Positions 19,548-21,831 of a DNA stretch of 64,000 nt are shown here, piece by piece. Source of the DNA: Aromatoleum bremense (lineage in GTDB: Bacteria; Pseudomonadota; Gammaproteobacteria; Burkholderiales; Rhodocyclaceae); the NCBI RefSeq assembly GCF_017894365.1, contig NZ_CP059467.1:4030001-4094000 (forward strand), given 5' to 3'. The notes below the pieces were generated by a model. The model did not search any database, had not been told where the DNA came from, and saw nothing but the letters and a program-made list of their open reading frames with translations. Position 1 is the first letter of the stretch. Each line of letters begins with the position of its first letter. A program made the translations under genes and the position numbers.

Positions 19548-19715
19548 TCAGTTGTTCTCCAGGATCAGGTGTCCGACCGCGGTATTCGAGGCGGGCACGT
19601 GGTAGAAACGATGCTTCACGGTCGGCGCGGGGCCGCCGGCGACATCGCTCATCGCGCCGCGCGCGATCAGCCACATCACGAGTTCGACGCCTTCGGAACC
19701 GGCCTCGCGCACATA
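19548..19715 (-). pseudogene. ligB: 3' fragment of ligB, cut off by the ISAzo13-type element
   Basis: This fragment encodes the last 55 residues of protocatechuate 4,5-dioxygenase beta chain: Y/V-R-E-A-G-S-E-G-V-E-L-V-M-W-L-I, then Y-H-V-P-A-S-N-T-A-V-G and a stop at 19548-19550. It has no start codon of its own apart from ones inside the insertion sequence. If the element and one ATA copy are removed, the frame joins the upstream part exactly (P-H-I-D-Y followed by V-R-E-A-G). By counting 47 residues from the His of G-G-M-S-H, the Fe-binding Glu of the family falls in G-V-E-L of this fragment. Confidence 0.93.
19713..19715. repeat. Target-site duplication of the ISAzo13-type element, left copy
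   Basis: ATA here is repeated at 21112-21114 on the other side of the element. One copy belongs to the original Tyr codon (TAT on the operon strand) of ligB, which confirms both the element boundary and the insertion point. Confidence 0.85.
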
Positions 19716-19739
19716 GGGGACGTCGGATAACAATTTCCC
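19716..19739 (+). repeat. Left inverted repeat of the ISAzo13-type element
   Basis: The 24-bp end starts GGGGACGTCGGATAA and ends TTTCCC. It pairs with the right end at 21088-21111 with five mismatches, at positions 8, 16, 17, 19 and 20 of the repeat. Confidence 0.85.
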
Positions 19740-19798
19740 GTTGAGGGATCGCAGAGCGGGGATTGCGGTCACACCTTCCAAGCGGTTGGAGGTGCGCC

Positions 19799-20437
19799 AT
19801 GTCTCACTTTGTCGTTCATGTTTGTAGTTGCCCGGCCTGCCAGTCGGAAGCGGAAGAGCACGCGGTGACGCGCGCGCTGCATCATCAAGCCAATCTGTTC
19901 GTGAGTCGCCTGGACGAGCAGCAACGGCGCTGGTATTGCGCGCTGGAATCGAAACGCCTCGGTCATGGGGGCGAGCAGTTGATCGCTCGCATCACCGGCG
20001 TCAGCGAGAAGACGATCCGCCGCGGTCGGCGGGAGCTTGCAGCCGAGCTGGCCGAGTGTCCCGTTGGCCGAATCCGGCACGCCGGCGGGGGTCGCCCCGC
20101 CGCCGAAGTCCGCGATCCCGAGCTGGAGAGTACGCTCGAGCGCTTGCTCGCCCCGGAGACGGCTGGCAATCCGCAGGGGCGCGGCAAATACAAGCGTAGC
20201 TCGTTGCGCCAGCTGAGCCGTCGCCTCGCGCAAGGCGGGCATCGAGCCAGCGCCGATACGGTTGGGCGCCTGGTCAGAAAGCTCGGCTATTCGCCGCGCG
20301 TCAATGCCCGGCGCAAGGAGGCAAAATCGTCGCCACCGGAACGCGATGCCCAGTTCAACTACATCGATGAACGAAAGGAAGAGTTCCTCGCGAAGGGTGA
20401 GCCGGTGATCAGCGTCGACACGAAAAAAAAGAGTTGA
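19799..20437 (+). CDS. ISAzo13-family transposase, upstream frame (orfA part)
   Basis: The product of the zero frame is 212 residues. It starts M-S-H-F-V-V-H-V after a good GGAGG site at 19788-19792. It contains a cysteine pair (C-S-C-P-A-C), a helix-turn-helix-like part (G-V-S-E-K-T-I-R-R-G-R-R-E-L) for DNA binding, and ends in V-I-S-V-D-T-K-K-K-S-stop. The Asp of V-D-T-K is the first residue of the DDE triad. The remaining catalytic residues are in the -1 frame, so this product alone should not transpose but could act as a regulator. Confidence 0.88.
   Translation: MSHFVVHVCSCPACQSEAEEHAVTRALHHQANLFVSRLDEQQRRWYCALESKRLGHGGEQLIARITGVSEKTIRRGRRELAAELAECPVGRIRHAGGGRPAAEVRDPELESTLERLLAPETAGNPQGRGKYKRSSLRQLSRRLAQGGHRASADTVGRLVRKLGYSPRVNARRKEAKSSPPERDAQFNYIDERKEEFLAKGEPVISVDTKKKS
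20425..20431 (+). promoter_or_regulatory. Candidate programmed -1 frameshift site A_AAA_AAG
   Basis: In the upstream frame the codons read ACG AAA AAA AAG AGT TGA, so the heptamer A AAA AAG is in the phase used by known -1 slippage sites such as dnaX. Slipping back one base gives K-K-K-E-L-I-G-N-F and continues for 220 codons to the stop at 21094-21096. This fuses the first catalytic Asp to the other DDE residues. Confidence 0.8.
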
Positions 20438-21096
20438 TTGGCAACTTCAGGAATGCCGGGCAGACTTGGTGTCGAGAGCCAGAAGCCGTGCTGGTGCATG
20501 ACTTTCCGCAAGATGCCGTCGGCCGGGCCATTCCATACGGCATCTACAGCCTCAATGACAATCACGGGTATGTGGGCGTCGGCGACTGCTTCGACACGCC
20601 GCGCTTTGCCGTGGAAACCATTCGTGACTGGTGGGGATACGAAGGCTATCGCCATTACCCGCAGGCGAAGCGGCTCCTGATTCTGGCTGATGCGGGCGGT
20701 TCGAACAGCTGCCGCTCGCGGGTCTGGAAAGCCCAGCTCCAGGAACAGCTCTGCGATGGCTGTGGACTGGATGTTACGGTTTGTCATTACCCGACGGGCT
20801 GTTCGAAGTGGAACCCGATCGAGCATCGGCTGTTCAGTCAGATCAGCCTGAACTGGGCGGGCAAGCCGCTGCGCAGCTTCGAGATGCTGACGAGCTACAT
20901 CGCAGCGACGAGCACGCGAACCGGGCTCACGGTCACCGGAGTGCTCAAGCGCGGCGGCAACGAACTGGGCGAGCGCGTTACCGACGACGAAATGAAGCGG
21001 CTTCGGCTGACCCGACATTCCGTCTGCCCGCAGTGGAACTACACGCTGCGGCCCCGCAATCCGAAGGCACGGCGCTGGGCGAAAATAGGGAGGTAA
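20429..21096 (+). CDS. ISAzo13-family transposase, downstream frame (catalytic part)
   Basis: This frame lacks a convincing start of its own and is reached by -1 frameshifting from the upstream frame; the joined protein would be about 432 residues. It contains D-N-H-G-Y-V-G-V-G, the second catalytic Asp in L-I-L-A-D-A-G-G-S-N, and the catalytic Glu in W-N-P-I-E-H-R-L-F-S. The final residues K-I-G-R end 15 bp before the right end of the element. All catalytic residues look intact, so the element could be active if frameshifting occurs. Confidence 0.88.
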
Positions 21097-21111
21097 TTAT
21101 CCGGCGTCCCC
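21088..21111 (-). repeat. Right inverted repeat of the ISAzo13-type element
   Basis: Read inward from the right edge this end is GGGGACGCCGGATAA followed by nine bases ending TCCC, the partner of 19716-19739. The transposase stop codon (21094-21096) lies inside it. Confidence 0.85.
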
Positions 21112-21831
21112 ATAGTCGATGTGCGGCACCTGCGACAGCTCGGCCGGATCGGCGATCAGGCGGTCGAGGAAGGCGTTGTCCCACTCGCGGTTGATCAGGC
21201 CGGCGCGCGCGCCCTGCAGCTGGTGGCTCATGCCGCCGGTGCCCCAGATCTGCACCTTCAGGTCCTGGTCATAGGACTCGACCGCGCGGCGGATCGCCTG
21301 GCCGAGCTGGAAGCAGCGGCGGCCAGACGGCACCGGGTACTGCACGACGTTGACCGCGAACGGGATCACCGGGCAGGGCCAGGAGGGAGCGCCCCCACGC
21401 TCGGCTTCGCCTTGCTGCGGTTCCCCGCACAGCAGCGACAGCGGCACGGTGAGGCCATGATCGACGTCCATCTTGTTGACGATCGTGAGGTCGAAGTCGT
21501 CCTGGATCACGCTCTGCGCGATATGCGCGGCGAGTTCCGGATGGCCGATGACCTTCGGCACCGGACGAGGGCCCCAGCCTTCATCGGCGGGCATGAATTC
21601 AGCGGCGCAGCCGATCGCGAAGGTCGGGATGAAGTCCAGGCTGAACGCGGTCGCGTGGTCGTTGTAGACGAGGAAGATCACGTCGGGCGTGTTCTCCTTC
21701 ATCCACTGCTTCGACGGCTCGTAGCCGGCGAAGAGCGGCTGCCAGTAGGCTTCGCCGGTCTTCTTCATGTCGATCGCGGCGCCGATCGCCGGAACGTGCG
21801 AGGTGTAAACGGATGCGGTGATTCTTGCCAT
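21097..21831 (-). pseudogene. ligB: Protocatechuate 4,5-dioxygenase beta chain, truncated 5' part
   Basis: LigB is the catalytic subunit of the extradiol dioxygenase that opens protocatechuate between C4 and C5. This part gives 240 native residues plus G-D-A-G from the insertion sequence before a stop. His12 (T-S-H-V-P-A) and His59 (V-Y-N-D-H-A) correspond to the Fe ligands His12 and His61 of the Sphingobium SYK-6 enzyme, and His203 (G-G-M-S-H) to the catalytic His195. The glutamate ligand is missing, having been left on the fragment at 19548-19715. The start at 21831 is 2 bp after ligA. A stretch of about 10 extra residues at about 139-149 is unlike the SYK-6 protein as I recall it. Confidence 0.94.

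Follow-up and report, generated by a model that had tools for sequence, protein, structure and literature searches.

The window, a stretch of 64,000 nucleotides from Aromatoleum bremense (contig NZ_CP059467.1, positions 4,030,001 to 4,094,000; 66.4% GC), carries a protocatechuate lig operon on its minus strand into which two insertion sequences have been placed. The name ligC is given provisionally, from the position of the gene. The features are as follows.

17059..18024, minus strand: ligC-like dehydrogenase (PF19858, PF01408)
18026-18029 and 19548-19551: 4-bp duplication TCAG of the IS1182-type element
18030..19547, minus strand: IS1182-type element, 1518 bp, at the ligB stop codon (NF033551, 369.6 bits)
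19548..19715, minus strand: 3' part of ligB, including the stop codon and the codon for the glutamate iron ligand
19713..19715, no strand: target duplication ATA, left copy
19716..21111, plus strand: ISAzo13-family insertion sequence, 1396 bp (terminal inverted repeats, ATA duplication, PF07592 and NF033519 on both ORFs)
19716..19739, plus strand: left terminal inverted repeat, 24 bp
19799..20437, plus strand: OrfA, 212 aa, ATG behind GGAGG; N-terminal part and D207; ends DTKKKS-stop (Pfam DDE_Tnp_ISAZ013 positions 2-99 of 308)
20423..20430, plus strand: A8 run in ACG AAA AAA AAG AGT TGA, with the in-frame heptamer A_AAA_AAG; proposed recoding site S2
20434..21096, plus strand: OrfB, -1 frame, carrying the remainder of the DDE domain, D298 and E342 included (Pfam positions 101-308 of 308)
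21088..21111, minus strand: right terminal inverted repeat, 24 bp
21112..21114, no strand: target duplication ATA, right copy
21112..21831, minus strand: 5' part of ligB, 240 codons, whose open frame now continues for 4 codons inside the element (GDAG-stop)
21834..22277, minus strand: ligA (TIGR02792, PF07746)

The 1396-bp element and its ATA duplication within ligB, both proposed in a first-pass annotation, were confirmed from the sequence, as was the assignment to the ISAzo13 family through profile matches to PF07592 and NF033519. The element ends in GGGGACGTCGGATAAC... and GGGGACGCCGGATAAT..., and its flanks read CACATA(element)ATAGTC, which is a 3-bp duplication of ATA. The inverted repeats of 24 bp had been called clean; they are good but not perfect, with 19 of 24 positions matching. 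Without the element and one ATA, ...PHIDY runs on in frame into VREAG..., as had been claimed. The empty site is preserved in the relative L012 (CACATCGACTATGTGCGCGAG), with the same bases around the site and a single TAT, and both L007, from the same genus, and L009 encode an uninterrupted PHIEYVREAG. A genome search returned one copy of the element, which means that it arrived from outside or that its other copies have been lost. A wider spread of close copies was considered and rejected, as no other copy above 51% identity appeared in the searches of the order (399 genomes, matches in 4 others, 35-47% identical), the class (369 genomes, matches in 11 others, 36-51% identical) or, with OrfB, the phylum (398 genomes, matches in 5 others, 45-48% identical). 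The search of viral contigs gave none.

Starting at 21831 on the minus strand, ligB is interrupted after Tyr240. The 5' part aligns with SYK-6 LigB (PDB 1b4u) up to residue 232 (E 1.7e-102), and the alignment bears out the earlier view that the histidines are retained there, with the catalytic His203 of the window facing residue 195 of 1b4u chain B. The glutamate iron ligand of LigB is, we assume, the one numbered Glu242. Alignment of the uninterrupted relative L012 identifies chain residue 242 as the E of G-V/I-E-L, beyond the break, and the proposed loss of this ligand from the truncated protein stands. The available text of PMC3962378 gives the iron ligands of DesB as His12, Asn57, His59 and Glu239, and describes the sphere of LigAB as 'essentially the same'. 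In the window LigA is present, but the iron ligands are not all found in one LigB polypeptide.

The genome consists of one contig of 4.38 Mb with one LigA match and one LigB-type gene, the latter in two pieces. No match to the intradiol dioxygenase family PF00775 was found in it. A second PF02900 protein (G000:C1:3294227-3294889) was rejected as a ring-cleavage enzyme; it resembles 4,5-DOPA-extradiol-dioxygenase, at 153.8 bits against a cut-off of 233. The genome searches for a second ligAB and for an intradiol enzyme, which the first-pass annotation had asked for, found no other protocatechuate ring-cleavage enzyme. Given that the glutamate ligand lies beyond the break and that no other such enzyme was found in the genome, protocatechuate ring cleavage by this operon should be disabled, and the strain is predicted no longer to use protocatechuate or 4-hydroxybenzoate through it. 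The knock-out of ligB is in itself ordinary.

Full-length LigB matches of 74-93% identity occur in 7 of 60 other genomes (G011, G017, G022, G026, G033, G038 and G046), which include just one of the 16 others of the same genus (G011). About 9 kb downstream of its first pair, G011 has a second, diverged LigAB pair (G011:C70, L026) with a 45% LigB match and LigA and LigB pieces; searches of the window's genome found no such pair. Relative to G011, the ligB halves have dN/dS values of 0.098 (230 codons) and 0.031 (54 codons), and the nine other lig-region genes compared have values of 0.089-0.232. Since the ligB halves show no visible decay since the insertion, these values agree with a recent event, and the suggestion of recency gains from the constraint still seen on both halves and from the single-copy state of the element. 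Separately, ligB carries a 30-bp in-frame insertion at about 21391-21420 with no counterpart in 13 LigB relatives (7 close, 6 diverged). It has the appearance of a repeat fragment. As a dispersed repeat it was rejected, being found just once in the window even when as many as 3 mismatches were allowed, and its exact 22-base core occurs in 8 of 197 loci, all of them own-genome loci over the same place.

At the ligB stop codon lies an IS1182-type element that the first-pass annotation overlooked. The genome has three copies of it, 100% identical over a 1381-bp query, and this identity marks the element as recently active. The copies share 18029-19549; the ends were set at 18030-19547 since each copy is then flanked by a matching 4-bp duplication (TCAG, TCGG and TCGG). 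The TCAG duplication preserves the ligB stop, and ligC is displaced by about 1.5 kb. In six relatives (G011, G026, G017, G033, G038 and G046) the aligned end of LigB lies at most 16 bases from the aligned start of LigC.

The transposase of the window's ISAzo13-type copy is split. OrfA ends ...VDTKKKS-stop and OrfB resumes with ELIGNF..., and the PF07592 DDE domain breaks off after profile position 99 in the one and resumes at 101 in the other. NF033519 is covered at positions 2-178 of 387 by OrfA and at 180-387 by OrfB; OrfB alone exceeds the profile cut-off, and OrfA falls below it (176.6 vs 200). The A8 run at the junction is one of two A/T runs of at least 7 in the 64-kb window. Residues D207, D298 and E342, which we infer to be the catalytic triad, are at least 95% invariant among 60 aligned rows where covered. 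The first-pass annotation had described the catalytic residues as intact; they do exist, but D207 lies in one frame and D298 and E342 in the next, with the A8 run between them.

Relatives were collected by a search of named genomes (58 loci), and 105 copies, some of them duplicated or partial, were compared in a frame-aware alignment. The near-full-length set comprises 32 copies, the window's among them, of at least 49% identity over at least 380 aligned residues; duplicates, copies below 380 residues and copies below 49% identity were left out. Events at residue 415 or later were ignored as alignment tails. L042 is counted although it matches well in its C-terminal half only, L141/L145 (49%; break at 209 in an AAG repeat, no A-run) were excluded by hand, and L035 and L037 share a genome, as do L040 and L041.

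Of these 32 copies, 23 are otherwise intact, and every one of the 23 has exactly one frame break, always at an A-run (A6-A10). In 18 copies, from Chloroflexota, Cyanobacteriota and Planctomycetota, the break is at S1 (residues 101-107, the linker before the catalytic domain, A6-A10), 14 being of -1 and 4 of +1. The other five, from Pseudomonadota and the window, are broken at S2 (residues 209/210, just past the catalytic Asp, A8-A9), 2 by -1 and 3 by +1; besides the window, S2 is used in Azohydromonas, Azospirillum, Polaromonas and Microvirga. A long A-run is found only at the site that is used, as the S2 run measures 2-6 in the 18 S1 copies and the S1 run 1-2 in the 5 S2 copies. Nine of the 32 copies have other lesions; seven of these are also broken at S1 or S2, and L042 and L147 are not. 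Residues K209-K211 and E212 are at least 95% invariant, which makes the S2 A-tract a matter of codon choice; the S2 slip site differs from the S1 group at this place mainly in that respect.

Polaromonas glacialis L044 has the same A8-GAG and the same -1 offset as the window, whereas in L043, L060, L039 and nine Microvirga copies an A9-GG puts the frame out. Partial S2 copies outside the 32 are L039 (+1 at A9), L064 (+1 at A7, plus a stop codon), L066 (-1 at A8, plus a further break) and L148 (in frame). Two Azospirillum copies are in frame at S2, the incomplete L148 and the otherwise damaged L147. Pairs of S2 copies with finite dS give dN/dS values of 0.07-0.33, pointing to purifying selection on both sides of the break, though several pairs come close to dS saturation and one has an infinite dS. 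Among distant members, 17 (37-48% identical) are unbroken in one frame, including L156 with an in-frame A7 run. The other distant rows are four diverged Polaromonas glacialis copies (L149-L152), which break at a third site, S3, at residue 94, where an A6 run forms part of A_AAA_AAG, and six that bear lesions (L129, L130, L135, L141, L144 and L161), L130 and L161 having a break near S1 too. Two further arrangements were seen. In G310:C45:28623-33361 (L138, L142), a gap of about 3.5 kb, placed near the S2 position, parts an OrfA-like from an OrfB-like piece of an ISAzo13 transposase. The nearly identical L123 and L141 of G323 are in frame in one case and have an extra base in the AAG repeat at DTKKKE in the other.

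On a Microvirga lotononidis plasmid there are seven copies that are full or nearly so, along with four partial copies, and all nine copies that contain S2 have the identical out-of-frame A9. Clear 3-bp duplications (TTA, CTA, TTA) flank three of the six copies whose ends were compared; of the rest, one has just TA in common between its two sides, and the other two agree in their left flank, CTAG standing on either side of one of them. The simplest account of such repeated movement in the plasmid, the replicon searched, is that the element works with the split in place, although an intact transposase from elsewhere in the strain may have helped. On the same plasmid, L171 and L174 have a common left flank and different right flanks, as if the flank had been duplicated or recombined.

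Two quick trees were built. In the first (60 rows, site columns left out, eight rows unassigned), the seven S2 rows and two damaged copies without an assigned site make up a clade of nine (support 100), S3 forms a single clade, and the S1 rows lie around S2. In the second (52 rows, eight dropped), S2 and L147 again form one clade. A strict claim that S2 arose within S1 was not kept: S2 is nested in S1, yet a single S1 clade is not rejected (p-AU 0.238). Over the 30 scored S1/S2 copies, 20 of -1 and 10 of +1, the tree calls for at least 8 switches in break direction. Run lengths that drift yet stay out of frame would account for such flips.

A conserved frame break at a slippery sequence, as expected of a recoding element, is thus found in 23 of 23 otherwise intact copies. 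From this single A-run break and the identical Microvirga splits, we conclude that the transposases of the clade would be made by programmed recoding, either -1 ribosomal frameshifting or transcriptional slippage. In the favoured explanation, an ISAzo13-family element inserted recently into ligB of the lig operon with a 3-bp ATA duplication, cutting off the C-terminal part of LigB with its glutamate iron ligand, which should disable the sole protocatechuate 4,5-dioxygenase found in the genome. Its transposase would come from two overlapping ORFs, OrfA supplying the N-terminal part with the first catalytic Asp and OrfB the other two catalytic residues, and the full enzyme would arise only upon a frame slip at the A8 run in D-T-K-K-K/E. 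The recoding site would differ between clades of the ISAzo13 family. Judged on sequence, this combination of a recent insertion that disables ligB with a transposase made by a slip at the A8 run, at a clade-dependent site, is very probably right. Against it speak the two Azospirillum copies that are in frame at S2, the 17 distant members with one frame (L156 with its A7 run among them) and the fact that no downstream RNA structure stood out in 13 copies. It also seems likely, with less assurance, that the whole ISAzo13 clade is made by programmed slippage at a lineage-dependent site, namely the linker in Chloroflexota, Cyanobacteriota and Planctomycetota, near-invariant Lys codons in Pseudomonadota and a third site at residue 94 in the distant Polaromonas group. 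On that reading, codon choice alone would turn KKK into an A8-A9 slip site in Pseudomonadota.

The kind of slip may not be the same everywhere. In the window copy, it could be -1 ribosomal frameshifting on A_AAA_AAG, which is in frame for it, or RNA polymerase could insert an extra A. For the A9-GG copies the opposite offset is required, which makes transcriptional slippage the simplest and the more likely route in them. Mixed break directions are described as a mark of transcriptional realignment in the available portion of Antonov 2013 (PMC3711429), and the sections of Baranov 2005 (PMC1088944) at hand report nine A's to be slippery and A8 to be non-slippery for RNA polymerase. On that partial account, the window copy may rely on the ribosome and transcriptional slippage is uncertain there; we regard ribosomal and transcriptional slippage in it as close to evenly matched. 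Frameshifting of -1 by the ribosome alone throughout the clade, without any transcriptional slippage, is rather unlikely. A_AAA_AAG is correctly phased for it in 10 of the 18 S1 copies that have no other lesion, and likewise in the window, in L044 and at S3, but 10 of the 30 scored S1/S2 copies need +1 (or -2), and a search of 13 copies yielded no significant downstream RNA structure (z -1.29 to +1.42). A downstream stimulatory structure is not required in all cases of recoding.

Programmed recoding has also to be weighed against loss of function. Simple decay of the transposase was rejected in view of a break at two exact places in all 23 otherwise intact copies. The narrower possibility that the window's transposase is a dead gene, hit after insertion by an ordinary homopolymer indel that left the element stuck, gains something from the ease with which homopolymers mutate, from the element being single-copy in the genome and from the real lesions in 9 of the 32 clade copies. 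It is nonetheless improbable, as the 23 copies are out of frame at S1/S2 and nowhere else, nine near-identical Microvirga copies have a common split, and constraint is seen on both sides of the break. More improbable still is a sequencing or assembly error, with an A9 miscalled as A8. A single-contig assembly may rest on long reads that miscount homopolymers, and an A9 before GAG would restore the frame; against this, A8-GAG with the -1 offset recurs in an independent genome, that of Polaromonas glacialis (L044), and A9-GG breaks the frame in L043, L060, L039 and the nine Microvirga copies. Finally, that LigB without its last 50-odd residues still works in a functional operon is barely credible, for the histidines kept in the 5' part are the only support found, and the glutamate iron ligand lies beyond the break and the IS1182-type element cuts off ligC.

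With programmed recoding as the preferred reading, both genes can be set beside known systems. The LigB 5' part resembles that of SYK-6 LigAB (PDB 1b4u, 1bou) over nearly its whole length and differs from that uninterrupted protein in its interruption and in the 10-residue in-frame insertion. Terminal inverted repeats with a 3-bp target duplication are features of the ISAzo13 family, as is a single-ORF transposase, perhaps without being a strict criterion. The window's element agrees with the family (NF033519, PF07592) in profile matches over nearly the whole length, in its DDE triad, in ends starting with GGG and in the 24-bp repeats with a 3-bp duplication (ATA here; TTA, CTA and TTA in three of six Microvirga copies). 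It differs in its reading frames: the 17 distant members analysed have one ORF, whereas the window's copy and the other 22 otherwise intact members of its clade are split at an A-run.

Recoding in the ISAzo13 family was not reported in the literature searched, although earlier notice in ISfinder or TnPedia is possible. The accessible part of a large survey of insertion sequences (PMC9208149) names ISAzo13 without the words frameshift or slippage, and the portions of Antonov 2013 (PMC3711429) and Baranov 2005 (PMC1088944) referred to above do not mention the family. The part of Atkins 2016 (PMC5009743) drawn on here lists IS1, IS3, IS5 and IS630 as families with programmed recoding and does not name ISAzo13, which we suggest as an addition to this short list. 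Such split transposase genes, we caution, need not be pseudogenes. The clade would further offer a natural series in which, within one gene, a single kind of slip site varies in position and works in either direction. As far as those sources go, the ISAzo13 elements resemble the recoding elements of IS1, IS3, IS5 and IS630 in having overlapping ORFs, a fusion that would give the full transposase and an A-rich slippery site, and differ from them in belonging to another family and in having the site at two alternative places, one of them just past the catalytic Asp rather than between domains.
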